Of a DNA stretch of 64,000 nt, positions 25,968 to 47,263 are shown piece after piece. The stretch is from Leptolyngbya ohadii IS1 (lineage in GTDB: Bacteria; Cyanobacteriota; Cyanobacteriia; Elainellales; Elainellaceae). Made by a program: the position numbers and the translations under genes. Each line of letters opens with the position of its first letter. Positions within the stretch are counted from its first letter, which is position 1. The DNA lies in the NCBI RefSeq assembly GCF_002215035.1, contig NZ_NKFP01000006.1, positions 1,438,530 to 1,502,529 on the forward strand. The letters are read 5' to 3'. A model generated the notes under the pieces. The model ran no database searches, had not been told where the DNA came from, and was given only the letters and a program-made list of their open reading frames with translations.

Positions 25968-26039
<72 letters not shown>

Positions 26040-26120
26040 TAAAATGTGTTGTACAATCACAAATTCTTTTGTACGATCGCACACTATATGTCGCTCGTCG
26101 CACGTTAGTGTCGTTGTGAC

Positions 26121-26658
26121 TGTTCACATTATATTGCGCAATTTCCAAACGACTTGCGCAACGTGCCTCTTTGGGCGTTTTTCGCTAAGTTCAAATGACT
26201 TACGCAAAATTACAACAGTTTTCAAATGGCTTGCGCAATTAACCCAATCAAAATCATCCGATTTTTGCCCAGTTACTACAACACATACAGATAGATGCTT
26301 TCAGAGGGTTATTCAGCTTGATTTTATGGCAAATGAGTTGCGCAAAATGAGAATTTGGCAAATGAGTTGCGCAAATTACATCAATTTCCAAATAACTTGC
26401 GCAATACCTTTACGTTGTCTTGCTGTCAGCCGTCACGCTATTTTGCGCCGGCATCACATTCGTTGCGCTGCACAAAAAATATGAGAGGCAAGCTACTCTT
26501 TTGTAAACGCTTCTTTACAGTAAGCAATGTAGCTGTACGTTTTCACGAAAAATGGCGCGGCTTTCAAACTCGTGGCGCGTAGCCCGATTTGACCTGCATT
26601 TTAAGCCTTTCAAATTCATGGCGCGAATTTTTCTTGTTTTCAAATTCGTGGCGCATTT
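26121..26658. repeat. Clustered about 20-bp motifs typical of CAST ends (TnsB-site candidates)
   Basis: At least nine variants of TTCAAATGACTTGCGCAA occur at 26143, 26190, 26221, 26329, 26358, 26387 and, in the subfamily TTCAAATTCGTGGCGC, at 26563, 26609 and 26639. Spacing is 29-31 or 46-47 bp within clusters. Two clusters are preceded by terminus-like hexamers (TGTTCA at 26121; TGTACG at 26535). The 26050 end itself has a different motif (GTCGYTSGTSRC-like, about 26075-26120). Regular spacing and terminus-like starts suggest transposase-binding arrays. Confidence 0.7.
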
Positions 26659-26889
26659 GATTGCCGTGACTGTTCGTATCTATCAAATGACAGTCATCTT
26701 GGCGGGGACGACAGCTACGACTCTTGCCTTAGAAAAAGCGATCGCATAGTGTCGTTTACAGTCACAAGAGGCTGAAAGCCTTATCAAAACCTGCTTTGGG
26801 GTCCGATCGCTGTTGTCGCGACAAGAAGCGATCCGTGGGGTGGCAAGAGCCGCACCTGTCGTCACCCGCCAATGTCGCTGTCGTCTGAT

Positions 26890-27472
26890 AGGTTTCTCTT
26901 TTTCGTCCAGCGAGCATCCGTATGCTTTTGCACCAAGCGATGTGAATTGTCCTACTAGCCTTGGGGAATCTCGCCCTGCTTGAGGAGTTCATTTTCTTTG
27001 TCGCTGTTGTGCTGCTTCGGCATAGGAATGAGTGTGGCATCTAAAATCTGTTTGGCTTTAGTAGCGTAGCCCTGTTGAAATAGGTAGCCATCGAATTGCT
27101 CAAACAAATGCTCGATTAACCCCTGTTCGCTCAACTGTTTGCGAAATAGGCAGACTGTTGTTGCATCCGGCAGTTCATCTGTCAGGCTAAAGTCCATAAA
27201 CTGCATAAACGACAAGCGGTCACTCACCTAATATTCTAGTTCCTCATCGAGGCATATTGTACAACTGCTGCAACACCAATAACTTCAACATCACAATCAC
27301 GTCGATTGCTTTGCGTCCCGCATTACTCTTGCCGAGTTTATGGTGGATTTGCTCTAGCGTCGAACGAAAGGTTTTCCAGGGAATGATTTCGTTGAGCCGT
27401 ACCAGTAAATCTTTTTTCTGCGTTAGTTTGGCTTGCCGTTCTTCCCAGTCCCAAAATTCAGCTTTGCCCTGT
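26890..27472 (-). pseudogene. IS5-family transposase relic
   Basis: Fragments in several frames read as an IS5-group transposase. The N-terminal part (KLTQKKDLLVRLNEIIPW; SNAGRKAIDVIVMLKLLVLQ) ends in a stop near 27230. The middle (DRLSFMQFMDFSLTDELPDA; QILDATLIPMPKQHNSDKEN) is 26955-27227. DARWTKK remains near 26900. The C-terminal catalytic part is gone. It occupies the position where tniQ is expected after tnsC. Confidence 0.82.
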
Positions 27473-27476
27473 CAAA

Positions 27477-28223
27477 TTAAAGTGCCTCACCATTTATCGG
27501 TTTGCAAATGACTCTCAACAAGCACTCAATCAACATATCGAAATTACCCTCCGATAATTCATATAAATTAGTCATTACTTCAAAACTAATCAATTCTGAT
27601 GTTTCCGGTGAGTTAAGAAAATCATTGAGGACATGTACAACCTGTACCATTTCCTCTAATTCTAAATTTTTGAATTCAAATTTATGTCTAAAGTAGTCAA
27701 GGAGATCAAGTTTCTTTAGCGTCTTAATTAATTTAATAGAACCAACGAGAATTAATGCCAGCTTAGTTGTTTTTGAAAACATCACAATATCTACTAAAGC
27801 TTGATTGGTCATAAGGTGGGCATTGTCAATTGTTAAACTTCTAACTTGAAGAACCTCAATCAAACTCCAACCCTTTAACTTGGCACTATGAAGTTTATCC
27901 TCATAGTTAAGGCTAGAACTTACACTATCTAGAATTAGTTGACGAAGAACTGTAGAGGTACAAGAAGATGTGCATTGAATATAGTGAGCGCTGGAAGGAA
28001 AATCTTGAGCTAAACCTGGCGCTTGGATAAATTGCGAAACGCAATACTCAATGGCTTTTGTTTTTCCGGTTCCTTGGCTACCAATAACTAAACCAAATCG
28101 CCTATAGTTATGGCACTGCTCAAACCATTGTAGAAGCTGAGTAAGCTGCTTCGTTTCTATCAAAAAAGAACCGTTTATAAAGCTCTCTATTCTATTGTTT
28201 ACCGCCAGATTGTTTTGAACCAT
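27477..28223 (-). CDS. tnsC: TnsC-like AAA ATPase of the CAST, divergent
   Basis: About 248 aa from ATG 28223 (AAGGTG upstream); the frame is open to 28271. Walker A GSQGTGKTKAIEYC, sensor-like LALILVGS and the following DYFRHKFEFKNLELEEM align with the order of motifs in V-K TnsC. TnsC polymerises on DNA and links Cas12k/TniQ to the transposase. Walker B reads LTIDNAH: the catalytic Glu of IDEA is Asn, so hydrolysis is probably impaired. The gene is more AT-rich than the chromosome. It follows the tnsB relic on the same strand. The reading frame is whole, but function is doubtful. Confidence 0.72.
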   Translation of the reverse strand: MVQNNLAVNNRIESFINGSFLIETKQLTQLLQWFEQCHNYRRFGLVIGSQGTGKTKAIEYCVSQFIQAPGLAQDFPSSAHYIQCTSSCTSTVLRQLILDSVSSSLNYEDKLHSAKLKGWSLIEVLQVRSLTIDNAHLMTNQALVDIVMFSKTTKLALILVGSIKLIKTLKKLDLLDYFRHKFEFKNLELEEMVQVVHVLNDFLNSPETSELISFEVMTNLYELSEGNFDMLIECLLRVICKPINGEAL

Positions 28224-28497
28224 TTTCACCTTCATTAACCAGCTTCTAATATTAAGGGAAATCCAAATCAATGCAAACTTTTCTTTTTTAATAGGCAGTT
28301 TTAGTTGCTTAGTGGTGCAGAAAACTCCTGAAGCTTTAGGAGGTGTTCAAGAACTAGATTTACACATTCATATTCCGATTCAGCAACGCCTATATCTGGT
28401 TCTTCCCTATGTTATTCTAGTAGGAAGATAATCGCGAGTGTTCACACAAATTTTTTATAGATATGGAGGATGTAATAATAAATTATTTCTCTGGGGG

Positions 28498-29283
28498 CTA
28501 CTCCTTCGGATACTTATTAAGTCTTACCGGTAGCAATTCACGACTAGATTCTTTAATGTTTGAGCCTCTTGGTAAGTCACTCATTCCCCTGCTTGATGAA
28601 TTCTGGGTTCTGGCTTTTGTCTTTACAAGATTTGGGTTTTTATCAGGCTCAGTTAACCAGATTTGGCATCGAGTTTCTAAACGATAACGAGAGTGAATAT
28701 TATGGTTGTATTGAAGGATGTAATCCTCAAACAAATCCTTCAACTCCTCGTACCTCAGAGTAGTAGTTTGCTATGGGAAATCAGTAAGCCTCGATACTGA
28801 TTGATGCTTCAACAAATTCACGCTTAGACCCTGAAGCATTCGTTCAATACTACCCGTGAATGAGAGATGCCTGCCTACCTTCAACCTAAGAAGCTGAATT
28901 CTTTGGGTTTCGGCAAAGCGAGCAAGACTGGTTGAATTGCTTGTCAGTTCAGTACCCCCGTCCGTCAGGAGAAACTGAGGAATGCCTCCAGTTGTCCAGA
29001 GGTCAGGTGAGTCATAGCGTGATGGATAGTTTTTAGGGCAAACTGCGTGAAGTAATGCGGCGATTACGGCATTATCTTCTCCTTCATCTTCATGAGTTAA
29101 GCGGTAACCTACAATTGTTTTTGAGTAGAGAGCAGAAACGATAGCAAGAATAAGGCGACTGTTTGGAGGAGACTCTTCAGTGAGATTTGAGCTAAAAATT
29201 GTCAAACTTATTAGCCAAATCTGGTTGATGAATTTTGCTTGCATGCAATTGCTTAATTCCAATTCTGTTTCTCCTGATTTCAT
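28498..29283 (-). pseudogene. tnsB: TnsB transposase pseudogene (DDE core remnant)
   Basis: One frame, interrupted by an in-frame TAG near 28771, carries the TnsB core. QIWLISLT stands where active proteins have WQxDxT, so the first catalytic Asp is Ser. FLLTDGGTELTS keeps the second Asp, and SIERML keeps the Glu. After the stop the frame continues as YEELKDLFEDYILQYNHNIH, matching the segment after the catalytic core. The N-terminal DNA-binding domains and the C-terminus are missing. The transposase is therefore inactive three times over. Confidence 0.85.
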
Positions 29284-29420
29284 ACTTTCTACCTCCTGTA
29301 TAAAGCTGAATCTTCATTAGCACTTGGCTCTACAGGTGTTAACTCACCTGATTAATTGGCTGAACAACGGTCGTGAATATCAACGCTAGGTATGTTACTT
29401 AACCTACGCTTAGTGAGTAA
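29284..29420. other. Junction between crRNA and tnsB relic
   Basis: AT-rich non-coding stretch. Canonical elements have their right end just beyond the delocalised crRNA; no TGTACA terminus is present here. Confidence 0.4.
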
Positions 29421-29474
29421 TTTGCAGACCTCTGCCTCTTTCAACCTACCCCCAATACTTCTTGTTCTACTGTG
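29421..29474 (-). ncRNA. Delocalised CAST crRNA (repeat plus 17-nt homing guide to tRNA-Cys)
   Basis: Read on the minus strand, a repeat ending GGGGGTAGGTTGAAAG (29453 to 29438) is followed at once by AGGCAGAGGTCTGCAAA (29437 to 29421). That guide is identical to tRNA-Cys bases 25988-26004. The repeat's GGGGGTAGG pairs perfectly with CCTACCCCC in the tracrRNA (29881-29873), better than either repeat of the main array. This is the homing arrangement known for V-K CASTs. Confidence 0.9.
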
Positions 29475-29555
29475 CTTCAAACAAGAAATAGCCTATGCAC
29501 TGTAAAAATTGATTGTGACAGTAAGAATTAGTCACAGTCCCGGATGGCATGGCGA

Positions 29556-29664
29556 CTTTCAACCTACCCGCTGTTGAGAAATCAATCGAACCGGCTGTTT
29601 GAACGTCGGTGGGAGAAAGTTGTATGACTTTCAACCTATCCGCCGCTGAAGAATCGATCGCACC
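29556..29664 (-). CRISPR. Short V-K CRISPR array, two degenerate repeats
   Basis: Two 37-nt repeats, 29628-29664 and 29556-29592, are about 80% alike. Each begins CTTTCAACCTA on the plus strand, i.e. ends TAGGTTGAAAG in transcript sense, as V-K repeats do. They enclose one 35-nt spacer (29593-29627), and a second spacer-like segment follows (29521-29555). Mismatches to the tracr anti-repeat and divergence from each other suggest decay. No target of the spacers was seen in the window. Confidence 0.8.
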
Positions 29665-29869
29665 TCCGGAGGCTAAAACTTTTGCTACACCAAGGTTTGT
29701 AGAAACCTTTTGCCAAAGCCCAAAATTGGGCTACTATTCCTTCTGGAGTGCAAATAGATTTTTGCTCGCTGTACCTTCAGACATCTTGGGGAGAGGTTCT
29801 TCTGGCAATTTGCCAAAGGTGCCCGATAAACCGACCTCGCTTCGCTTTGTCAATTTGTACAGAAAGTCA

Positions 29870-30145
29870 ATTGGGGGTAGGCTCAACCCTTGATCGGGGC
29901 GTATAGTAGCTGCCCGCTAAGCCATCTCTGGTCATAGCACACGTATTTCTGTATCCTTATCAGTAGCACTGTCATGCTGCCGCATCGAATTGCTTCCTGA
30001 TGTAGGCGCGACCCTACACCTGCCACTGGCTCCTCCAACTGTACTAAGCCATACAATCTAGAATCAGTGACGCAGAAGCGGACAACTACCTGGGACGGAA
30101 AGCAATTAAACTGACCCACACTTTTCGCGGCGCGCTATTTAGAGA
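29870..30145 (-). ncRNA. Cas12k tracrRNA
   Basis: Lies between cas12k and the array on the same strand. The 5' region contains AATAGCGCGCCGCG, and the 3' region CCCCGATCAAGGG followed by anti-repeat TTGAGCCTACCCCC. These match, in order, elements I recall from the ShCAST tracrRNA. The length of about 275 nt is somewhat longer than that reference. Ends are estimated from these landmarks; no promoter or terminator was mapped. Confidence 0.78.
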
Positions 30146-30184
30146 ATTGACTGCCTATTTCAGCTATTTCGGCATCCTTATCAT

Positions 30185-32530
30185 TTATGCAGCGGGGGAA
30201 TCGACTGATTCTGGTCGCGGCAATCGATCGGAGGACACAGCGATCACCTTTTCTTGCAGTGTACCGAGCCTCGGTTGACGTCCCGGTACAACAGATATAC
30301 CCACCTCCACCGCACAGGCACGAATACACTGGCTCAAATTTTTATAACTCCAGCGATGAAAACCCATTCGATGCTCCTTTTTATACTGTTGTTGTCGGTA
30401 CACATTGTCGTCACAAAACTTTTGCTTCGCTTTTGCTTTGATTTCGCTTTCAACGCTTTCGCGCAAATCACCCAATTCTGGCAGGACAATTATGCTGACT
30501 TTCCAGTGCTGACAGCGTTGAATAATCCTTCTGGCAAGTAGGCGATTGAGGTATTGAGACAGGTTCGCCTCAGCTTTGCTGGGACGGTATAAGCCCTGCT
30601 GTTGCTCAGTCTGTCGATCGCGTATATTTTGGTCTCTCAATCGACGCCAGCGGTTGATCAAGCGATACGGCTGAAGTTGAAGCTGTTTGGGATTGATCTT
30701 GGGTTTGTAGGGAGAGCAAGATTTCTTGCCTTCCGACTGTTGAACTGCTTCGGCTTTATCCTGTGCCTTCTGTTGGCGCTTCGGTTGGCTGTGTAGTTTT
30801 GCACTACGCTGCTTCAATACCTCCTGACGCTGTTCGGACAGCAGTTCTCTCGGTGTGCAGTACTCCAGCACCTGCTGCGATTGCAAATCCATGACAGCAG
30901 TACCCACAATCTCTTGGCGACTAAAGGCAATTTTCATAGCAATATCGGGATCTCCTCGATGGGCAACCTGACTCGGACGTGGAGGTGGTGAATTCCTGAT
31001 TAATCGGTCTCGTGTAGTTCGATTCTTTTTGTTAATCTGCGTGTTCTCCTCATTCTCAATCACAACTTGTTCTTCGTCTTCATCATCAATCGGTGGCGGT
31101 GAACAGGATAGTATTTCATCTGCCTGCTCTTCTATCCTTAATTGCCTTAAATACCTGTTCACCTTTGTGAGCTTTTCTTGACGGACTTGCTCAGTCCCTT
31201 CTGCGGTCAGCAGTCGGGTGTCGATTGTGCAATGGAGATACAAGCGATGACTTTGCCAGGGCTTTTCTTCACCTGCATGTTGCTTATCTGGTTCCCAAAG
31301 CAGGCAAGCAGACCTCAGGGGAAGCAGCGCAAGCGAGAACTTATCTTCCTTACTCCGTCTTTTGTTCTCCTCCAAATCAGTCACCCACTGCCGTAAAGTG
31401 GCTAGGTCACGACGATCGCAATAGGTTTTGCCCTGAATACCGCTGAAGCCCTTGAATCGAACGCAGATTCGAGCGGTGTTCAGTTTTTTCCGCTTTTTGT
31501 ACCTCCGTCGTTTTGGTTTTCTACGTGACGACGGAGTGCCATTAGGATTCACAATTTCACAGAGTGAGGTTTTTGGTTCTTCTGGCTGTGTATTAGTTTC
31601 AAACGACCAGTACAAGTCGGTGTTACTGCCAAATAGGACTGGGTAAGGCAAAGTCTCCAAATCGGAGGATAAATTTGCCAGCCGAACTGCGAACTCCTTT
31701 TGCCACGCCTCGAATTCACCCTCAGGGTAAAACAACGCAGCCGATTGGATAAGTTGATCTGTCCGATAGCCTAAGGGGTCACGTCCGATGGGCAGTTCAA
31801 CTGCCATTTGCTCCTCAAATCGCTGAATTTGAATTCGTTTCTTCGATAGCCTCAGCAAAATAGCGTCTCGGTCTTCCACTTCCGCCTCTTCCACTTCCCC
31901 CCCTTCCTTTTTCTTTTTCTTTTTAACTTTCACTTTGCAATCATTTCGCAATAGGTAGGCGATCGCCCGCTGCTCCAGGGGTGTTTCTGTTTCCTTGAAA
32001 AGTTGAAACAATAAACTCATCACCGAGGGCAAGTCCTGTTCAGCTTGGTTTTCTTCGCGAAGTTCCTGCCGTCGTTGCTCAACCTCTTCGAGAAACTGTT
32101 TTGCCCTATCTCGAATTTGTTCAGGTGTGAAATCTGTAGACTGAGCGAGGTCAAGATCGTATTCTTGAATAGCTAACCAAGTCTTCTTTCCCTCACACTG
32201 AAAGTGAAGCTTGCGTTGCCTCGCGAAAATGGAAGCAAACATATATTGGACTGATAATACAGCAGACGTGAGCATCCGTGCAGGAATATCCTCAAAGACT
32301 CCCTCCTCTTTCAGATGAACGAATTTTTTATTCTTTAAGTGAGTTAATTGAAGCTGAATCTCTTTTCTGGGTATCGAGCCTTTTTTCCGCCAGCTTTCAA
32401 ACTTAGACTGTTTGGGTAGTTCCACAAGTAACTGGTTAATCAGCAAAGTGTGGCGCACAGATAAATCCCAAAGCTGCTTGCGTGTATTTTCGTCAAAGCA
32501 TAGAAGCAAGCGCAATGTTTTAATTGCCAT
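30185..32530 (-). CDS. cas12k: Cas12k, RNA-guided DNA-binding effector of the V-K CAST
   Basis: 781 aa from ATG 32530 (MAIKTLRLLLCFDENTRKQLW). The frame is open to TTG 32572. The N-terminus matches the family start (ARLISFxxxRQQLW). The C-terminus VLPELGDLRESVESEIKAKA, FHRWSY and PGRQP matches the family VLPKLGDMRE...HRWSY...EGKQP blocks. Cas12k is a nuclease-dead Cas12 that directs TnsB/TnsC/TniQ insertion. At 781 aa it exceeds ShCas12k (about 639 aa) through charged inserts: a Lys/Glu tract around residue 200, an Arg/Lys block around 335, a PPPIDDEDEEQ stretch near 490 and a Gln/Lys segment near 600. No frameshift or stop: the effector has been kept while the transposase decayed. Confidence 0.93.
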   Translation of the reverse strand: MAIKTLRLLLCFDENTRKQLWDLSVRHTLLINQLLVELPKQSKFESWRKKGSIPRKEIQLQLTHLKNKKFVHLKEEGVFEDIPARMLTSAVLSVQYMFASIFARQRKLHFQCEGKKTWLAIQEYDLDLAQSTDFTPEQIRDRAKQFLEEVEQRRQELREENQAEQDLPSVMSLLFQLFKETETPLEQRAIAYLLRNDCKVKVKKKKKKEGGEVEEAEVEDRDAILLRLSKKRIQIQRFEEQMAVELPIGRDPLGYRTDQLIQSAALFYPEGEFEAWQKEFAVRLANLSSDLETLPYPVLFGSNTDLYWSFETNTQPEEPKTSLCEIVNPNGTPSSRRKPKRRRYKKRKKLNTARICVRFKGFSGIQGKTYCDRRDLATLRQWVTDLEENKRRSKEDKFSLALLPLRSACLLWEPDKQHAGEEKPWQSHRLYLHCTIDTRLLTAEGTEQVRQEKLTKVNRYLRQLRIEEQADEILSCSPPPIDDEDEEQVVIENEENTQINKKNRTTRDRLIRNSPPPRPSQVAHRGDPDIAMKIAFSRQEIVGTAVMDLQSQQVLEYCTPRELLSEQRQEVLKQRSAKLHSQPKRQQKAQDKAEAVQQSEGKKSCSPYKPKINPKQLQLQPYRLINRWRRLRDQNIRDRQTEQQQGLYRPSKAEANLSQYLNRLLARRIIQRCQHWKVSIIVLPELGDLRESVESEIKAKAKQKFCDDNVYRQQQYKKEHRMGFHRWSYKNLSQCIRACAVEVGISVVPGRQPRLGTLQEKVIAVSSDRLPRPESVDSPAA

Positions 32531-32682
32531 AGGTATCTCAAAGGATTGTATTAGGGAGATAGATTGAACCAAACCTTTCGGAAAATAATTGAGAAGTAGG
32601 TTACCTGGAGAAATATGTTTTCTCTTTACGTCGGCTAATCCTCGAAATACGAGCAGCCCGTAGGAGGAGGCAGGCTGTAGCT

Positions 32683-40067: not shown

Positions 40068-40283
40068 ATGATACGCCTCCTTCTTACCTCCTCCAGCATC
40101 ATGCAGTGCCGACCTCAACAAGGTTTAGGCAGAGCAGTGGTGCTGTGTGCGTTTGCGGAGGCGTATCGGTTTGACGGCGGTAAATCCGTCAGTGAAAGCA
40201 TTCATAGCTTTATTGCCGGATGGCTGAATCCGGATCAATCCATGAGCAGCGGGAGGTGCAGGGTAGTCCTGACACCGACATAG
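40068..40283 (+). CDS. Possible small protein, doubtful
   Basis: 71-aa open frame starting eight bases after the last operator half-site, with no recognised motif (MIRLLLTSSSIMQCRPQQGL). No clear ribosome-binding site. It may instead be leader sequence of the HNH gene. Confidence 0.25.
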   Translation: MIRLLLTSSSIMQCRPQQGLGRAVVLCAFAEAYRFDGGKSVSESIHSFIAGWLNPDQSMSSGRCRVVLTPT

Positions 40284-40360
40284 GGAGAAACTCTATCCAC
40301 TTTCCCCAACCCCCGCTCCTGGTGTTCAGAGGCGGGGATTCTTTTTTGAGGAGAAAAGTT

Positions 40361-40891
40361 ATGCAAACCCAGCAGCGACAGAAGATTCCAATACTCCAGA
40401 ACCAGGTTGTGGTGTTCTCAAAAAACTACCTGCCCCTGGCACGAATCAACATTAAGCGGGCGATCGTTTTACTGGTTACCGGACAGGCAGAGACTCTGGA
40501 ATTCAGCAGCACTCAACAGTGGGAAGTCCGGTCTGCTAGCGTGGTTCTCCAAATTCCGGAGCATATCCGCTTAACGAGCGGCAACCCGGAGCGATACTGG
40601 AAATCCCCTGCCGTCAACCGTCGAGAAGTCTTCCGGCGCGATGGTCACACCTGTCAATACTGTGGCAGCACCAAGCATCTGACGCTGGATCACGTCATTC
40701 CCCGCTCGAAGGGCGGCACCCATACCTGGGACAACGTTGTAACCGCTTGTGAACAGTGCAATTCTGCGAAGGGCGATCGTCTCTTACATGAAATCCCCAT
40801 GACGCTGAGAACGAAACCCAAAGCACCGATTCACCCAGCCATTGCCTTTGCCGAGCAGTTCTGGAAAGAACAGCAAACGATCGAGACCTGA
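40361..40891 (+). CDS. HNH endonuclease
   Basis: 176 aa from ATG 40361 (GAGGAGAAAAGTT upstream). The HNH module is complete: CQYCGSTKHLTLDHVIPRSK, then W-NVVTACEQCNSAKG, with two CxxC zinc pairs. The N-terminal IPILQNQVVVFSKNYLPLAR is shared with cyanobacterial and phage HNH proteins of this size. First clear gene of the RHH-flanked operon that leads into the tRNA array. Confidence 0.88.
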   Translation: MQTQQRQKIPILQNQVVVFSKNYLPLARINIKRAIVLLVTGQAETLEFSSTQQWEVRSASVVLQIPEHIRLTSGNPERYWKSPAVNRREVFRRDGHTCQYCGSTKHLTLDHVIPRSKGGTHTWDNVVTACEQCNSAKGDRLLHEIPMTLRTKPKAPIHPAIAFAEQFWKEQQTIET

Positions 40892-41758: not shown

Positions 41759-41834
41759 GGGGGTGTAGCTTAGCCCGGTTCAAAGCATCTTCCTGTCGAG
41801 AAGACGATCGTGGGTTCAAATCCCATCACTCCCG
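41759..41834 (+). tRNA. tRNA-Asp(GTC)
   Basis: Acceptor GGGGGTG/CACTCCC, anticodon loop CTGTCGA, discriminator G as expected for Asp. First tRNA of the array. Confidence 0.9.
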
Positions 41835-41840
41835 CCTTGT

Positions 41841-41914
41841 AGCATCGTGGACGAATAGACAAGTCGCTCTGATTCTCAGTCAGAGAGAAGCGGGTGCAAC
41901 TCCCGTCGATGCTC
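41841..41914 (+). tRNA. tRNA-Glu(CTC)
   Basis: Acceptor AGCATCG/CGATGCT, anticodon loop TTCTCAG, encoded CCA. The T-loop is atypical (TGCAACT) and the discriminator is C, so identity is less secure. Confidence 0.7.
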
Positions 41915-41919
41915 CCAAT

Positions 41920-41992
41920 GAGGATGTTGCTCAGTGGACAGAGCACCTGTTTCCGAGGCAGGACATCACAGGTTCGATTCCTGTCATCCTCG
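41920..41992 (+). tRNA. tRNA-Arg(CCG)
   Basis: Acceptor GAGGATG/CATCCTC, anticodon loop TTCCGAG, T-arm GGTTCGATTCC, discriminator G. Confidence 0.88.
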
Positions 41993-41997
41993 CTCGT

Positions 41998-42078
41998 GGG
42001 GACGCGAATGGATTTCATCTGCTCTGAAACCCACAAGCGGACGGTTGCAGAACTGGGGTTCGATTCCCCACGTCTCCA
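41998..42078 (+). tRNA. Aberrant tRNA-like gene, tmRNA-like 5' half, G3-T70 pair
   Basis: Acceptor GGGGACG/CGTCTCC with a G3-T70 wobble (the alanine identity pair), perfect T-arm, discriminator A and encoded CCA. No D-stem can be drawn; CGAATGGATTTCA resembles a tmRNA D-loop. TCTGC and GCAGA pair around a 24-nt loop instead of a normal anticodon arm. No canonical anticodon is assignable. Confidence 0.6.
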
Positions 42079-42084
42079 CCACAT

Positions 42085-42157
42085 CTCCAGGATGCCGAAT
42101 GGGAAGGCGTTGGTCTGCAAAACCGACTATTCGTGGGTTCAATCCCCACCCTGGAGT
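42085..42157 (+). tRNA. tRNA-Cys(GCA), array copy
   Basis: Acceptor CTCCAGG/CCTGGAG, loop CTGCAAA, discriminator T, encoded CCA. Its anticodon-arm sequence differs from the chromosomal tRNA-Cys, so the CAST guide does not match it fully. Confidence 0.93.
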
Positions 42158-42163
42158 CCAATC

Positions 42164-42240
42164 GTTGCAGTGTCACCTAATGGTTAAGGTCCTCGGCTCA
42201 TAACCGAGTTTATGTGGGTTCAATTCCCACCACTGCAACC
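42164..42240 (+). tRNA. tRNA-Met(CAT)
   Basis: Acceptor GTTGCAG/CTGCAAC, loop CTCATAA. Discriminator C is unusual. It could instead be an Ile tRNA with a modified C34. Confidence 0.82.
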
Positions 42241-42242
42241 CT

Positions 42243-42313
42243 GCACAGATGGTGTAACGGCAGCACAAGGGTCTCCAAAGCCTTTTGTCCGGGTTCAAAT
42301 CCTGGTCTGTGCG
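42243..42313 (+). tRNA. tRNA-Trp(CCA)
   Basis: Acceptor GCACAGA/TCTGTGC, anticodon loop CTCCAAA, discriminator G as for Trp. The anticodon stem has two wobble pairs. Confidence 0.82.
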
Positions 42314-42319
42314 TTCTAC

Positions 42320-42397
42320 GGTGTGCCCTCATCCGAGAAGCCTACATACTGGTCACTCGCCTGAAAAGCGAAGTAGGTTCGACTCCTACAGCCTCCG
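42320..42397 (+). tRNA. Degenerate tRNA-Phe-like(GAA)
   Basis: T-arm GTAGG/CCTAC, loop CTGAAAA with a four-pair stem, and GCCA at the 3' end are good. The 5' acceptor strand does not pair with AGCCTCC. Probably a broken copy, since a second tRNA-Phe follows in the array. Confidence 0.5.
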
Positions 42398-42477
42398 CCA
42401 CTTATTCGCGAGAACAGCCAAATGGAGGCTGAAAAAACAGCTTCTCAAACTTGCACGCTGTAGAAATCTCAAAACTT

Positions 42478-42551
42478 GGTGCCGTAGGCAAATTGGTAAA
42501 GCCACAGGTCTTTCAATCCTGCGTTTGCGGGTTCAACTCCCGTCGGCACTG
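42478..42551 (+). tRNA. tRNA-Glu(TTC)
   Basis: Acceptor GGTGCCG/CGGCACT, D-arm GGCAAATTGGTAAAGCC, loop CTTTCAA, discriminator G, encoded CCA. Confidence 0.88.
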
Positions 42552-42588
42552 CCAAACTTGCTCAAACATGAGCAACCCAAACAAGCAT

Positions 42589-42670
42589 AGGTCGGCTCTC
42601 CTATCAGTGTGGGCAACTGTCTGTAAAACAGCCGCTTCTTGCGTTGCAGGTGCGACTCCTGCCCGACCTA
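42589..42670 (+). tRNA. tRNA-Tyr(GTA)
   Basis: Acceptor AGGTCGG/CCGACCT, loop CTGTAAA, long variable arm as expected for bacterial Tyr, discriminator A, encoded CCA. Confidence 0.92.
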
Positions 42671-42678
42671 CCAGTCAT

Positions 42679-42760
42679 GGAGAGTAAACCAATGAGGCAA
42701 TTGGCACTGTTTGCTAAACAGATGGATGAACAATTGTGGTTCGAGTCCACTGCTCTGTGC
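42679..42760 (+). tRNA. tRNA-Ser(GCT), weak acceptor stem
   Basis: Anticodon loop TTGCTAA, variable arm about 15 nt, T-arm GGTTCGAGTCC. The acceptor pairs only with mismatches (GGAGAG against CTCTGT), so ends are approximate. Confidence 0.65.
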
Positions 42761-42857
42761 GACACGAGGTTACTCGTGGGGAGTGGTTGCCCAAGCAACT
42801 CAGGTTAGCGTTCAAACCTGTTCTCATGTCCTCCATGCGTTGTTGGTAACAACAGGG
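42761..42857. other. tRNA-remnant region and 5' exon of the group II intron
   Basis: Contains a T-arm-like hairpin (CAGGTT...AACCTG), a hairpin GTTGCCCAAGCAAC and TCCTCCA, but no complete cloverleaf. A hairpin GTTGTTGGTAACAAC ends four bases before the intron start. Confidence 0.4.
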
Positions 42858-45158
42858 TGTGAAGCAGAGGATAAATGTCTAAGGAGAGTCTAACCTCAAG
42901 ACAAACCGGGCTAGGGAAAGGTCGGTATGGCTAGCGAAAGCGAACCTTCGTTTTTAAGCTTCGTTAAGGACAGCACCTCCATGAGGATGAAAAAGGAGGG
43001 AAAAGCTGCTCTGAATGGAGAGATAGAGCACTCGCCATTAAGAACGCCTTGCAGCCGGAGCAGAGAAGGAGCCTAACCCGACCGCAACTCCTACGAGTGA
43101 AACGTGCTAAGCCCAATGAGGTCTGTCATTGACAGTAAGCAAGCCGCAAGGCAAGCCCAACTCCTCAGTGGGTAAAGGATGGACAAAAAGCGAATGCTGT
43201 TAGCCGAAAGGCAAAGAGGAAACAGGATTTGTCCCTGATAACTCGACAGATAGGGCAATACCCAATCCAAAAGGATGCTGACTTGTCCAGGTGAAGTTCC
43301 ACGAAAACCTGATGAAAGGTCTAGTGAATTCATAGGAAGAGTTAGATGCAAGCACTAAGCTCCGCAAACGTAACTATGAAGACCCCAATAGACTGGCATT
43401 CCACAAACTGGAAGAAGGTCTATCGTTTGGTTAACAACCTCAAACGCAGAATTTTTCGTGCCGCTAAGAAGGGCAACTTGAAAAAGGTTCGCTCACTGCA
43501 AAGGTTGATGTTGAGAAGCTATTCAAACGCTCTTGCAGCCGTAAGAAGAGTGACTCAACTGAATCAGGGGAAGAAAACTCCTGGAGTAGACAAAATGGTA
43601 GCACTCAAGCCAGAAGCAAGGGCTAAATTAGTCCAACAACTACTGAGCCACGAACCCTGGAAGGTGTTACCTGTCCGACGAATTTACATTCCAAAATCCA
43701 ATGGCAAGGAAAGACCACTCGGAATTCCTGTAATCAAAGATAGGGCAATGCAAGCTATTGTTCTAAACGCCCTCGAACCCTATTGGGAATCAAAATTTGA
43801 GGGAAGCAGTTACGGATTTCGTCCGGGTCGAAGCTGTCATGATGCAATCGAAGCGTGCTACAACTCTGCTAAGGCTGCTCCCAGGCAGAAGAAGAAGTGG
43901 GTTCTCGATGCAGATATCAAGGGCGCATTTGACAATATCTGCCACACGTACTTGATGAACCAACTGAAAGGCTTCCCAGCCAGGGAACTCGTCAGAAGTT
44001 GGCTTAGGGCAGGTGTGGTAGAAAACCTTGGAAATTACCACAAGGTGGGAGAATACACTCCAACCGAGCAAGGTACACCTCAAGGCGGTGTGGTGAGTCC
44101 AATTCTTGCCAACATTGCGTTACACGGAATGGAAGAAGTCTTGGGAATCAGATATAAGTTCCGCACTGACCGCCAAACCTTTGAACTTACCAGTGACCGT
44201 GCAATGGTGAGATATGCAGACGACTTCGTCGTTTTCTGCAAAACTAGAGAGAATGCCGAAGAGGTCAAGAAAATTCTAACTGAATGGCTAGCGATAAGAG
44301 GACTGATCTTCTCAGAAGATAAAACATCTATTCGGCAGCTAAAGGAAGGATTTGATTTTCTAGGTTTCAATGTCCGACACTATCCAGTCAAGGATAGAAG
44401 GTCAGGATATAAACTCCTAATTAAACCAAGCAAGAAATCGGTCACAAACCATAGAAAAAGGCTAAAAGCTGAATGGCTGAAACTACCAGGTCAAAACATC
44501 AACACGGTACTGCGGGTACTTAACCCAATCATTCGTGGATGGTGTAATTATTTCAAGCCTGCCGTTTCTGCCAAAGAGTTCGACAGTTTGGAGAAATACT
44601 TATATATCCGTAGTAAACGATGGGTATATAGGAATCATCGAAACAAAAGTCGAGCTTGGATAAAACAGCGCTATTATGCCAAATTCAAAAAGGGAAGTAA
44701 GAAGATCAGGTTTGGTGACGTAAAGACAGGACAGTATTTGCTCTACCATTCGGACTTCAAAATAGAACGTCACACTCCAGTTAAAGGCAATTACTCTCCG
44801 CTAGATCCTGATTTAAGAGGATACTGGCAATCAAGACAACTTGTGAAACAAGGAAAGTTAAGTAAGGACAAAGCCAGACTTGCGGAAACACAAGAATGGA
44901 GATGTCCAGTATGTAGGGAACCACTACTCAATGGTGAGGAATTACATAAACATCACAAAATCCTGAAATCACAAGGTGGTAGAGACAGCATCGATAATCT
45001 CATTGTGCTTCACCTTGTTTGCCACCAAAATGTCCACTTAAGGAATCGAAAAAAGCAGCTTTTAGTTGGTCAGGAACTTGCTTAAGCCGGATATGGCGAA
45101 AGTCATAAGTCCGGTTTTGAGGGGAGAGGGTTGTGGTGACATAACCTTCTTACCCGAC
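42858..45158 (+). mobile_element. Group II intron inserted in the tRNA array
   Basis: Begins GTGTG (group II 5' consensus) at 42858. A structured 5' region of about 490 nt precedes the maturase ORF. After the ORF, AGCCGGATATGGCGAAAG and TCATAAGTCCGGTTTTGAG form domain V, followed by a domain VI hairpin with a candidate branch A (GTGACATAACC) and an AC terminus near 45158. The tRNA array resumes at 45181. Exact exon boundaries are inferred. Confidence 0.85.
43346..45085 (+). CDS. ltrA: Group II intron reverse transcriptase/maturase with HNH endonuclease domain
   Basis: 579 aa. RT domain with YGFRPGRSCHDAIEA, DADIKGAFDNI, GTPQGGVVSPILANI and the catalytic YADDFV. Maturase X domain around 380-460 (NPIIRGWCNYFK). 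C-terminal HNH: CPVCREPLLNGEELHKHHK, SIDNLIVLHLVCHQNVH. It splices and mobilises the intron. All key motifs are intact, so the intron may be active. Confidence 0.95.
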   Translation: MQALSSANVTMKTPIDWHSTNWKKVYRLVNNLKRRIFRAAKKGNLKKVRSLQRLMLRSYSNALAAVRRVTQLNQGKKTPGVDKMVALKPEARAKLVQQLLSHEPWKVLPVRRIYIPKSNGKERPLGIPVIKDRAMQAIVLNALEPYWESKFEGSSYGFRPGRSCHDAIEACYNSAKAAPRQKKKWVLDADIKGAFDNICHTYLMNQLKGFPARELVRSWLRAGVVENLGNYHKVGEYTPTEQGTPQGGVVSPILANIALHGMEEVLGIRYKFRTDRQTFELTSDRAMVRYADDFVVFCKTRENAEEVKKILTEWLAIRGLIFSEDKTSIRQLKEGFDFLGFNVRHYPVKDRRSGYKLLIKPSKKSVTNHRKRLKAEWLKLPGQNINTVLRVLNPIIRGWCNYFKPAVSAKEFDSLEKYLYIRSKRWVYRNHRNKSRAWIKQRYYAKFKKGSKKIRFGDVKTGQYLLYHSDFKIERHTPVKGNYSPLDPDLRGYWQSRQLVKQGKLSKDKARLAETQEWRCPVCREPLLNGEELHKHHKILKSQGGRDSIDNLIVLHLVCHQNVHLRNRKKQLLVGQELA

Positions 45159-45180
45159 CCGCCTTGATTTTTACGGTTTT

Positions 45181-45254
45181 GAGAACGTGGTGTAACTGAA
45201 TAACATTTCAGGCTACGAACCTGAAGATTGGGAGTTTGAATCTCTCCGTTCTCG
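45181..45254 (+). tRNA. tRNA-Arg(ACG)
   Basis: Acceptor GAGAACG/CGTTCTC, loop CTACGAA with a perfect five-pair stem, discriminator G. First tRNA after the intron. Confidence 0.88.
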
Positions 45255-45262
45255 GCAAACAT

Positions 45263-45345
45263 GGAGGACACTGCTGAATGGTCGGCAACTGGTCTTGAAA
45301 ACCAGGGTGAGGTGACACTCAGGGGTTCGATTCCTCTGTCCTCCG
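45263..45345 (+). tRNA. tRNA-Ser(TGA)
   Basis: Acceptor GGAGGAC/GTCCTCC, loop CTTGAAA, long variable arm, discriminator G as for Ser. Confidence 0.93.
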
Positions 45346-45350
45346 CTTGT

Positions 45351-45423
45351 GGGAAGTTGGTGAAGCTGGTGCTCACGTGCCCCTGAAGAGGGTGAGAAGA
45401 CGGTTCAATTCTGTCACTTCCCA
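45351..45423 (+). tRNA. tRNA-Phe(GAA)
   Basis: Acceptor GGGAAGT/ACTTCCC, loop CTGAAGA, discriminator A. Confidence 0.88.
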
Positions 45424-45428
45424 CTCAT

Positions 45429-45500
<72 letters not shown>

Positions 45501-45508
45501 CCATTCAT

Positions 45509-45582
45509 TGCCGAGTGGACGAATCGGTAGAGTCACCTGTCTCTGAAACAGGAGTTTGTAGGTTCAAATCCTACCTCGGCAG
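45509..45582 (+). tRNA. tRNA-Gln(CTG)
   Basis: Acceptor TGCCGAG/CTCGGCA, loop CTCTGAA, discriminator G, encoded CCA. Confidence 0.93.
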
Positions 45583-45633
45583 CCATCTCTTAATTCATCA
45601 ACTTATTGATTCGCTATCTCTGAATTGATTTAT

Positions 45634-45706
45634 TGCCCTGTGGTGAAATTGGCATCCACGTCGCTCTTTGACAGCGAAGTTCCAGGTTCAAACCCTGGCA
45701 GGGCAG
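45634..45706 (+). tRNA. tRNA-Gln(TTG)
   Basis: Acceptor TGCCCTG/CAGGGCA, loop CTTTGAC, discriminator G. Confidence 0.93.
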
Positions 45707-45758
45707 TTGGGAGGTAAACAGTCGCCTGGGACAATCCCCTGTAAACCTCCCTTTCCTC

Positions 45759-45833
45759 ACTCCTGTAGCCCAATTGGAAGAGGCGGCTGTCTCAAAACCA
45801 GTCAAGGCGCAGGTTCAAATCCTGCCAGGAGTA
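45759..45833 (+). tRNA. tRNA-Leu(CAA) with short variable arm
   Basis: Acceptor ACTCCTG/CAGGAGT, loop CTCAAAA, discriminator A, encoded CCA. The variable region is only about 5 nt, although Leu tRNAs normally carry a long arm, and the D-arm is class-I-like. A hairpin remnant (GGGAGGTAAACAG, about 45709-45750) precedes it. Confidence 0.8.
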
Positions 45834-45841
45834 CCAAGCAT

Positions 45842-45914
45842 CGGGATGTAATTCAGGGGTCAGAAGCCTTGGTTTGGGACCAAGGAGTCGTGGGTTCAAA
45901 TCCTACCATCCCGA
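45842..45914 (+). tRNA. tRNA-Pro(TGG)
   Basis: Acceptor CGGGATG/CATCCCG, loop TTTGGGA, discriminator A, encoded CCA. Confidence 0.93.
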
Positions 45915-45920
45915 CCATTT

Positions 45921-45995
45921 GCCCTTGTGACGGAACTGGCAGACGTGCTGGCTTCAGAGACCAGATTTTTGTGGATTCAAATCCCACCAAGGGTA
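45921..45995 (+). tRNA. tRNA-Leu(CAG), Leu body with shortened variable arm
   Basis: Acceptor GCCCTTG/CAAGGGT, D-arm TGACGGAACTGGCAGACG of leucine type, loop TTCAGAG, discriminator A. Variable region about 6 nt (ATTTTT). Confidence 0.82.
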
Positions 45996-45999
45996 CTAC

Positions 46000-46073
46000 G
46001 CTCCTGTGACGGAATCGGAAGACGTGCCAGGTCGAGAGCCTGGATTGTGCAGGTTCAAATCCTGTCGGGAGTA
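46000..46073 (+). tRNA. tRNA-Leu(GAG), Leu body with shortened variable arm and C33
   Basis: Acceptor GCTCCTG/CGGGAGT, leucine-type D-arm, loop TCGAGAG (C at 33 instead of U), variable region about 6 nt, discriminator A, encoded CCA. Confidence 0.8.
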
Positions 46074-46079
46074 CCATCT

Positions 46080-46154
46080 GTACCGGAGGCGGAAGTGGTG
46101 GACGCGCACGCCCGATAAGCGTGTTATTAGCAGGTTCAACTCCTACTCGGTGTA
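46080..46154 (+). tRNA. tRNA-Ile(GAT) on a Leu-like body, C33
   Basis: Acceptor GTACCGG/TCGGTGT with three wobble pairs, leucine-type D-arm (GGCGGAAGTGGTGGACG), loop CCGATAA (C33), variable region TTATTAG, discriminator A, encoded CCA. Could be a recoded leucine tRNA. Confidence 0.75.
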
Positions 46155-46162
46155 CCAAATAT

Positions 46163-46234
46163 CTGAGTGTGTTGCAGTGGGAGCACGTCGGTTCGGGGAA
46201 CCGGAGGTCGTAGGTTCAATCCCTACCACTCAGA
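46163..46234 (+). tRNA. tRNA-Pro(GGG)
   Basis: Acceptor CTGAGTG/CACTCAG, loop TCGGGGA (C33), discriminator A, encoded CCA. Confidence 0.85.
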
Positions 46235-46239
46235 CCATT

Positions 46240-46270
46240 CGGGTCGTTGGCAGAGCGGATATTCATAAAC
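46240..46270 (+). pseudogene. 5' half tRNA fragment with CAT loop
   Basis: GGGTCGTTGGCAGAGCGG then ATATTCATAAAC resembles a D-arm and Met-type anticodon loop, but the T-arm and 3' acceptor are missing; the next tRNA starts directly. Confidence 0.4.
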
Positions 46271-46342
46271 GGGCTATTAGCTAAGTGGTAAAGCAGCCGC
46301 CTCTTAAGCGGAAGAGCGTAGGTTCAAATCCTACATAGCCCA
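46271..46342 (+). tRNA. tRNA-Lys(CTT)
   Basis: Acceptor GGGCTAT/ATAGCCC, loop CTCTTAA, discriminator A, encoded CCA. Confidence 0.94.
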
Positions 46343-46350
46343 CCAAACCT

Positions 46351-46424
46351 ACCCCTGTGACGCAACTGGCAGACGTAGCCCGCTTAAACCGGGATGGGTG
46401 CAGGTTCAAATCCTGTCAGGGGTA
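46351..46424 (+). tRNA. tRNA-Leu(TAA), Leu body with shortened variable arm
   Basis: Acceptor ACCCCTG/CAGGGGT, leucine-type D-arm (TGACGCAACTGGCAGACG), loop CTTAAAC, variable region about 7 nt, discriminator A. Confidence 0.82.
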
Positions 46425-46425
46425 T

Positions 46426-46497
46426 GCGGAGATGGAGCAACAGTGGCTCGGAAGGTTCATACCCTTCAAATCAGTGAGTGCAATTCTCACCTCCGTC
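46426..46497 (+). tRNA. tRNA-Met(CAT), second copy
   Basis: Anticodon stem GAAGG/CCTTC with loop TTCATAC, T-arm GTGAG/CTCAC. The acceptor has one mismatch and a non-A discriminator, so ends are approximate. Confidence 0.7.
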
Positions 46498-46504
46498 ACC
46501 GGAT

Positions 46505-46576
46505 GCTGGTGTGGCTCAACGGTAGAGCAACTGTCTTGTAAACAGTCGGTTGCAGGTTCAAATCCTGTCACCAGCC
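46505..46576 (+). tRNA. tRNA-Thr(TGT)
   Basis: Acceptor GCTGGTG/CACCAGC, loop CTTGTAA, perfect anticodon stem, encoded CCA. Confidence 0.92.
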
Positions 46577-46598
46577 CCATTTCATTAAATGCAGATTT

Positions 46599-46670
46599 GC
46601 GAATGTGGTGCAGCGGCAAGCATCCCTGGCTTCCAACCAGGAGACACGAGTTCGAGTCTCGTCTTTCGCT
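46599..46670 (+). tRNA. tRNA-Gly(TCC)
   Basis: Acceptor GCGAATG/CTTTCGC (one mismatch), loop CTTCCAA, discriminator T as for Gly, encoded CCA. Confidence 0.9.
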
Positions 46671-46707
46671 CCAAAGGATGTCATTCAAATTCTTAACTTC
46701 TAATCTT

Positions 46708-46780
46708 GCGGGTGTGATGTAGCGGCTAGCATCTGAGTCTGCCAGTCGAGAGCGCATGGGTTCGAGTCCCATCATTCGCT
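46708..46780 (+). tRNA. tRNA-Gly-like(GCC), poor anticodon stem
   Basis: Acceptor GCGGGTG/CATTCGC, body closely related to the preceding Gly gene, loop candidate CTGCCAG, discriminator T. The anticodon stem hardly pairs, so it may be non-functional. Confidence 0.6.
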
Positions 46781-46784
46781 CTGG

Positions 46785-46856
46785 AGTCCTGTAGCTCAAC
46801 GGTGGAGCATCTGTCTTACAAACAGGGGGTTGCGGGTTCAAATCCTGCCAGGACTA
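46785..46856 (+). tRNA. tRNA-Val(TAC)
   Basis: Acceptor AGTCCTG/CAGGACT, loop CTTACAA, discriminator A, encoded CCA. Confidence 0.94.
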
Positions 46857-46874
46857 CCAAATGATAGCAATTAT

Positions 46875-46948
46875 GGGCGTGTCGCCTAATGGAAGAGGGC
46901 ATCGGTCTTCTAAACCGATCGGTGCAGGTTCGATTCCTGCCACGCCTG
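46875..46948 (+). tRNA. tRNA-Arg(TCT)
   Basis: Acceptor GGGCGTG/CACGCCT, loop CTTCTAA, discriminator G, encoded CCA. Confidence 0.93.
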
Positions 46949-46981
46949 CCATTTGTTCGATTATTGCTATCTCGTAATCAT

Positions 46982-47054
46982 GGGTCTGTAGCTTAACTGG
47001 GAAAGCCTCTGCCTTGCAAGCAGAAAGATGTCGGTTCGACTCCGACCAGAATCC
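46982..47054 (+). tRNA. tRNA-Ala(TGC)
   Basis: Loop CTTGCAA on a perfect stem TCTGC/GCAGA, T-arm GGTTCGACTCC. Acceptor GGGTCTG/CAGAATC has one mismatch; G-T wobble near position 2-71. Confidence 0.85.
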
Positions 47055-47057
47055 ACT

Positions 47058-47131
47058 GTGACTGAACCCGAAGGGGTGGAGGGGCTGGTTTGTGACACCA
47101 GTGTTAGCGAGTTCAACTCTCGTCAGTCACT
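47058..47131 (+). tRNA. tRNA-His(GTG) without the usual -1G:C73
   Basis: Acceptor GTGACTG/CAGTCAC, loop TTGTGAC. Position -1 and the discriminator are both T, whereas bacterial His tRNAs use G-1 with C73. Confidence 0.8.
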
Positions 47132-47148
47132 CCAATTGAAATCGTCAT

Positions 47149-47232
47149 GGAAGCTGCGGCTGAAGGTCAGCAACCTGTCTCGAAAACAGGCGTACAGTTT
47201 GCGCTGTAGGGGTTCGATTCCTCCAGTTTCCG
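47149..47232 (+). tRNA. tRNA-Ser(CGA)
   Basis: Acceptor GGAAGCT/AGTTTCC, loop CTCGAAA, long variable arm, discriminator G. Confidence 0.9.
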
Positions 47233-47263
47233 CTGTTTTATCGGTCAGTGAGAGGTGGTAGCA

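Follow-up and report, generated by a model that had tools for sequence, protein, structure and literature searches.

The locus described here raises the question of why a homing guide should fit its tracrRNA better than the CRISPR array beside it, and whether the difference records the decay of that array or a property of the family to which the locus belongs. Within the window (the whole 64,000-nt stretch of DNA analysed) lie a CRISPR array of two 37-nt repeats ending GTTGAAAG and, separate from it, a truncated repeat with a 17-nt spacer that matches a tRNA gene with a GTN PAM (Table 1). According to the available part of PMC9938897, the truncated repeat (R*) and the 17-nt anchor spacer of type V-K CASTs sit between the array and the left end, and the order of components in the window is that of the V-K layout described there. 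The homing spacer has three mismatches to the window's other tRNA-Cys gene (42085-42160), and the array spacers, searched as the 166-nt stretch holding both, had no BLAST match at E values up to 0.1 in collections of plasmids and of phages. The second tRNA-Cys gene belongs to a cluster of 27 ARAGORN tRNA genes (41759-47233) that is interrupted by a group II intron reverse transcriptase (43346-45085), just before which lies a frame that looks HNH-like by eye (40220-40891).

Table 1. Features of the guide module and its target (window positions).
Feature	Positions	Strand	Remarks
cas12k	30185-32572	(-)	795 aa from listed start; NF038191, E 2.5e-159, 531.6 bits against a cut-off of 150
tracrRNA, approximate extent	29860-30150	(-)	putative ends; start from the 35-nt distance after cas12k (PMC9938897, available part)
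tracrRNA hairpin GCCCC(GATCAA)GGGTT	29885-29900	(-)	sets the register
tracrRNA anti-repeat AGCCTACCCCCAAT	29870-29883	(-)	directly 3' of the hairpin
Array repeat A, 37 nt, nearer the tracrRNA	29628-29664	(-)	pairs 6, one mismatch, pairs 2 more; 81% identical to B
Array repeat B, 37 nt	29556-29592	(-)	first mismatch after 9 pairs
Homing (delocalised, 'anchor') repeat handle R*, ATTGGGGGTAGGTTGAAAG	29438-29456	(-)	pairs 14 positions with the anti-repeat
Homing spacer AGGCAGAGGTCTGCAAA, 17 nt	29421-29437	(-)	17/17 identical to tRNA-Cys 25988-26004
Protospacer in tRNA-Cys (gene 25968-26039)	25988-26004	(+)	PAM GGTA, 25984-25987
Left-end repeats of the element's clade	26534-26655	(+)	three copies of TTTCAAATTCGTGGCGC-like repeats
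Second, outer left-end-like stretch, beginning TGTACAATCAC, with TTGCGCAA repeats	26050-26405	(+)	putative assignment

Pairing was counted upstream from the TT of TTGAAAG in each repeat, and the anti-repeat was positioned by the hairpin that precedes it rather than by complementarity; a scan for the most complementary anti-repeat was dropped because such a choice of site favours pairing. The choice of hairpin gave a small bonus to the letters that follow it, which array and homing repeats have in common. Counted in this way, the homing repeat is the best paired of the three, as the first-pass annotation had proposed, with 14 positions (13 Watson-Crick pairs and one G-U) against 9 for repeat B and 6 for repeat A. 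The mismatch counts given earlier for a 9-mer, one in B and two in A, were also right, as was the estimate that the array repeats differ at about 20% of positions: they differ at 7 of 37, six of these in the 5' 21 nt and one in the 3' 16 nt. Duplex energies computed for naked RNA were -24.3 kcal/mol for the homing repeat, -15.2 for B and -11.7 for A, and the homing duplex of the window was the strongest among the 80 loci surveyed below, the next reaching -19.4 kcal/mol. At the sixth position both the array and the homing repeats of the window are paired.

Seen blindly, a 17-nt inverted repeat of 88% identity is unremarkable, and the same 9.2 kb holds 39 inverted-repeat pairs. The match gains weight because it is located at the register set by the tracrRNA hairpin, where relatives pair too: over idx3-9, the mean Watson-Crick fraction of homing repeats was 0.81 in register, and shifts of one to three bases brought it to 0.44 or less. 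The place and sequence type of the anti-repeat are common to the window and to loci L039, L167, L171, L172 and L174, and the hairpin of the relatives reads CCNCC(GANCAA or TTCGTC)GGNGG, followed by AA or AG and then by C or T. Folding alone gives no support, since the region 29660-30120 has a z-score of -1.31 and 10 of 100 shuffles fold as well; its predicted fold does not keep the proposed arrangement of hairpin and anti-repeat.

The survey of type V-K loci started from the DNA downstream of cas12k in 140 loci, namely the window, 80 loci from a genome collection (the best 80 of 168 encoding a relative) and 59 from further genomes. The criterion for array repeats was their similarity to one another and their spacing or, for a few single repeats, likeness to other arrays; a homing repeat had to have a 17-nt spacer with at most two mismatches to a downstream target that lies on the opposite strand beside a GT PAM. 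Five loci with less than 420 nt downstream were dropped; 18 were without the hairpin, and all of these were dropped except L194 and L201, which were placed by eye. From the resulting 119 loci we removed 37 without an array or a homing repeat, one duplicate and L180, which had no clear register, leaving 80. Loci L001-L030, with short flanks, served in protein alignments only (several were refetched with longer flanks), and L050 and the viral loci L131-L133 were left out. The resulting table replaces an earlier one of 48 loci, in which homing repeat, array and tie had counted 37, 8 and 3.

By longest uninterrupted pairing, the homing repeat was ahead in 61 of the 80 loci (window included), the array in 11 and neither in 8 (sign p 1.5e-9, with related loci taken as independent, as in all sign p-values of the 80-locus counts). 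Watson-Crick pairs in the first nine positions favoured the homing repeat in 55 loci and the array in 7, with 18 ties, and the naked-RNA duplex energies did so in 61 and 18, with one tie. One vote per Cas12k cluster among the 77 loci placed on the tree gave 47, 10 and 7 of 64 for homing repeat, array and tie (p 7.5e-7), and clustering at larger distances gave 29, 7 and 6 of 42 (p 3.1e-4) and 21, 5 and 6 of 32 (p 2.5e-3). Homing repeats fitted their own anti-repeat at 8.35 of 9 positions, against 7.03 for foreign anti-repeats, and array repeats at 7.89 against 7.53; the sequence of the homing repeat was distinct from the array repeats across the surveyed loci. Most V-K elements have a homing repeat whose complementarity to the anti-repeat exceeds that of their array repeats. 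The array paired better in L037, L066, L075, L077, L085, L086, L097, L118, L126, L187 and L198. Three of these (L075, L097 and L126) have swapped roles, with the sixth position paired in the array repeat and unpaired in the homing repeat.

These counts bear directly on the idea that an unused array lost its complementarity while the homing guide stayed under selection, which we consider improbable as an account of the pairing difference. The same asymmetry is found in 24 of the 31 loci whose arrays are intact, with at least five repeats that are 97% alike, and because such arrays show it too, the asymmetry is no sign of decay, and decay as its general cause is rejected. Array repeats that pair at eight of the first nine positions are the mode of the family (53 of 80 loci) and only 11 of 80 reach nine, so that repeat A, with eight, and repeat B, with nine, stand at or above that mode. 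The first-pass annotation had named, as what would speak against decay, relatives with the same array mismatches and active array-guided insertion; as regards the mismatches, the arrays of relatives do carry them.

The commonest difference between the two kinds of repeat lies at the sixth position, where the array usually has a non-standard U-U or A-C and the homing repeat a standard pair. Positions one to five are paired in nearly all homing and array repeats. At the sixth, 72 of the 80 homing repeats form the pair, against 25 of the 80 array repeats, and at the fifth and seventh the two kinds are much alike. Among the 55 array repeats unpaired at the sixth position, 27 have U-U and 21 have A-C, partly through shared descent; the commonest letters of tracrRNA, array and homing repeat are T, T, A (26 loci), A, C, T (21) and A, T, T (16, including the window). 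The guide scaffold of ShCAST likewise has U-U at the sixth pair. Over positions three to nine (idx2-8) there were 162 differences between homing and array repeat, and a Watson-Crick pair was made by the homing base at 114 of them and by the array base at 37; random replacement gave 41.7 (sd 5.3, maximum 61 in 5000). Leaving out the sixth position, the homing base was the Watson-Crick one in 60 of 103 differences; the random replacement refers to the full 162.

The homing base also tracks the tracrRNA base where the latter switches, a covariation of modest statistical weight. On the 77-locus Cas12k tree, the sixth tracrRNA base switches between A and T at least five times, and in four independent switch pairs the homing base followed suit in an average of 3.8 and in none changed in the opposite direction, against 0.3 for the array base; the sign p is 0.125, and four pairs cannot reach 0.05. 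Among the 53 anti-repeat differences of 22 path-disjoint pairs, a compensating base change was found in 17 cases for the homing repeat and in 7 for the array, a G-U was tolerated in 11 and 20, and the pair was broken in at least one partner in 25 and 26, respectively.

The position of the commonest difference also weighs on the possibility that a homing repeat of about 12 nt, lacking the 5' half, can hold the tracrRNA only through a duplex that is longer or closer to perfect. Such a need for compensation agrees with the description of R* as truncated, at about 12 nt (PMC9938897, in the part available), with a Watson-Crick pair at idx9 in 45% of homing repeats as opposed to 11% of array repeats, and with the 14 positions reached in the window. 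However, the sixth pair lies well inside the part that both repeats share, many homing repeats pair only to 8-9, and at idx11 homing and array repeats are about equal. We regard compensation for truncation as an unlikely explanation.

A further property that separates the two kinds of repeat is their own folding. In these predictions, array 37-mers folded at a mean of -13.6 kcal/mol and homing 37-mers at -3.5, and when these folds were counted, net binding of the 37-mer to the tracrRNA segment was stronger for the homing repeat in 75 of 80 loci (means -12.6 and -2.8 kcal/mol). All fold and duplex energies refer to naked RNA, free of Cas12k, other tracrRNA contacts and mature crRNA ends, and processed crRNAs may lack the array-repeat hairpin. 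As far as RNA folding alone shows, an internal hairpin of the array repeats would thus compete with pairing to the tracrRNA, and homing repeats are mostly predicted to be without one. The hairpin was considered as the full cause of the sixth-position difference and found insufficient: it is no explanation everywhere, because just 41 of the 80 array repeats have their sixth base paired in the predicted fold.

Strong folding of the array repeats would nevertheless be expected if they are bound by a second function (a hairpin for processing, or recognition by the spacer-acquisition proteins of the host), with the homing repeat free to track the tracrRNA and both guides loading equally well, so that no sorting of guides would be involved. 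The suggestion that a type I-D adaptation system serves V-K arrays (PMC11406308, a review available in part) points the same way. Against this stand the 41 of 80 just mentioned and the finding that in 10 host genomes all 64 repeat copies (at most three mismatches to the V-K pattern) adjoin cas12k, with no stand-alone host array among them. Such a by-product of a second function is, to our mind, rather less than an even bet, although it deserves more credit than either decay or truncation.

The reading that we favour, with a probability of roughly 0.55, is that the match of the homing repeat to the tracrRNA is maintained and that the array repeats answer to other constraints. Selection may keep the single homing guide matched, while the array repeats would be held by other needs such as the hairpin, processing and the acquisition of spacers by a host system. 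If the homing handle is matched and the array is otherwise constrained, the homing guide should load better: it would pass more easily onto the tracrRNA-Cas12k complex, and the safe tRNA site would be favoured for insertion. More tentatively, and with the odds somewhat against it, V-K CASTs could sort their guides by the crRNA handle, the array having a built-in defect (the conserved non-standard sixth pair together with the competing hairpin) and the homing guide a repaired and co-evolving handle, so that the pool of tracrRNA-Cas12k would lean towards the safe tRNA site and array-guided jumps would be rare; such handles would be the counterpart, based on the tracrRNA, of the private guides of type I-F3.

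The window's Cas12k forms a clade of long proteins with those of L039, L167, L172 and L175 (SH-aLRT 100), whose long branches leave the details unsure; L167 and L172 have the window's tRNA-Cys site as their homing target, with one mismatch each. The rule that the homing repeat pairs better is weak nearest the window, because three of its four nearest relatives (L039, L167 and L172) tie on run length and L175 favours the homing repeat but has its array repeats off register. At the fifth position the arrays of L039, L167 and L172 form G-U and their homing repeats A-U, whereas both A and B of the window form A-U; B thus pairs better there than the arrays of the relatives do, and A has one added mismatch, at idx6. 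The window's genome (G000:C6) holds two further Cas12k loci, L039 and L040, each with its own tRNA-matching homing repeat, and their handles read CTGAAAG, matching AG in place of AA in the tracrRNA. In L172 the last array repeat is degenerate and the homing repeat comes immediately after it, possibly a clue to the origin of homing repeats. Within the window's order there is also a group with unusually long Cas12k (the window, L039, L141, L142, L147, L148, L156, L167 and L172), its open frames being about 750-873 aa as against about 620-680.

In the window, the array has eroded in other respects. The identity of A and B is the lowest among the 73 loci with at least two repeats (median 1.0), apart from L175, whose value of 0.70 is an artefact of a one-base offset. 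The array repeats fold at only -5.0 and -4.9 kcal/mol, the fifth weakest of 80 (median -14.8), with three or four other loci having a hairpin as weak or weaker; the relatives L039, L167 and L172 reach -10.7, -12.2 and -11.9. The added mismatch of A and the long branch of the window's Cas12k are in line with this. On the other hand, the cas12k frame is open and without stops, and the 3' 16-nt handle carries only one of the seven A-B differences. What is eroded here is the uniformity of the repeats and the repeat's own hairpin; the handle that pairs with the tracrRNA is kept.

The surroundings tell a similar story of loss. TniQ and the C-terminal domain of TnsB (Mu-transpos_C) had no match inside the window, compared with 10 and 7 matches in the whole genome, and a set of tnsB, tnsC and tniQ at the right end was not found within the window; the only TniB-like match of that search (G000:C6:1466243-1466677) lies on the wrong side. 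All that remains of such genes in the window is a TnsC/TniB-like AAA protein (27477-28271; PF13401, E 7.6e-15) and a piece resembling rve (28771-29283), whose E of 3.7e-4 does not reach the Pfam cut-off; the TniB family also gave matches in 13 of the 14 control genomes. Both lie in the stretch of about 2.7 kb inserted between the left end and the homing repeat, an interval in which L167 and L172 have only about 0.8 kb to the target. A plasmid search with the inserted stretch (26500-29300) returned one 4% match, to Agrobacterium, which we take as uninformative. The clade's left-end repeats are 89% identical over 122 nt to those of L167 and 92% over 125 nt to those of L172, and no inverted copies of either left-end repeat set were found in the window within three mismatches. 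Counted from the PAM, base 26050, where an end-like TGTACA lies, is the 63rd, but the left-end repeats shared with the clade lie farther in, at 26534-26655; in the available parts of the two reports, the V-K left end lies 46-82 nt from the PAM (PMC9938897) and the 63rd-base distance was seen in 4 of 6 insertions in Anabaena (PMC10949235). Two left-end-like stretches stand in tandem beside the tRNA-Cys gene (26050-26655).

Since no TniQ or Mu-transpos_C match lies inside the window, we regard the locus as the guide module of a V-K CAST and not as a complete element. It appears to be the guide module of a degraded V-K element (cas12k, tracrRNA, two-repeat array and homing repeat) beside tRNA-Cys, with traces of a second insertion, and probably immobile alone; the loss of hairpin and uniformity is as expected of an element that no longer moves by itself. 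The earlier claim that the array is decaying while the homing guide stays matched therefore survives for the matched homing guide and for the erosion of the array, seen in the 81% identity, the weak fold and the missing TniQ and TnsB C-terminal matches. Its use of the tracrRNA mismatch as a mark of decay is not supported. This changes how the window is read, as imperfect pairing with the tracrRNA is the usual state of V-K arrays.

A difference of one base pair in the handle that recurs family-wide would be an easily tested switch, and engineered guides could be given the matched handle of the homing repeat in place of that of the array. In the literature searched, as far as the sources were available, we found no account of what decides, in V-K elements, between insertion at the safe homing site and jumps guided by the array. 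The available portion of PMC9938897 yielded no comparison of R* and array repeats for tracrRNA pairing, nor did the portions of reviews on truncated homing guides covered by our partial search, and we claim no novelty in print on this point.

Among known systems, the closest is the anchor guide of the type V-K CAST described in PMC9938897, to judge from the part available: the window likewise has cas12k, a same-strand tracrRNA, 37-nt repeats, R* with a 17-nt tRNA spacer and a GTN PAM, but it differs in that a full TnsB, TniQ and the right end were not found within it and in the 2.7 kb or so that separates its left end from R*. Its effector is homologous to ShCas12k and the other solved Cas12k proteins (five distinct PDB sequences, E below 1e-66); at 795 aa, however, it is longer than the PDB chains (639-698), and the best stretch covers residues 629-776 only. 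In the type I-F3 systems, whose atypical (private) homing crRNAs were shown to be hyperactive, a diverged repeat likewise sets the homing guide apart, as stated in the available part of PMC11406308. Type I-F3 uses Cascade and TniQ and no tracrRNA, whereas the effector here is Cas12k, and for this reason the window is not a member of that type; its homing guide may at most be similar to the I-F3 private guides in its working.
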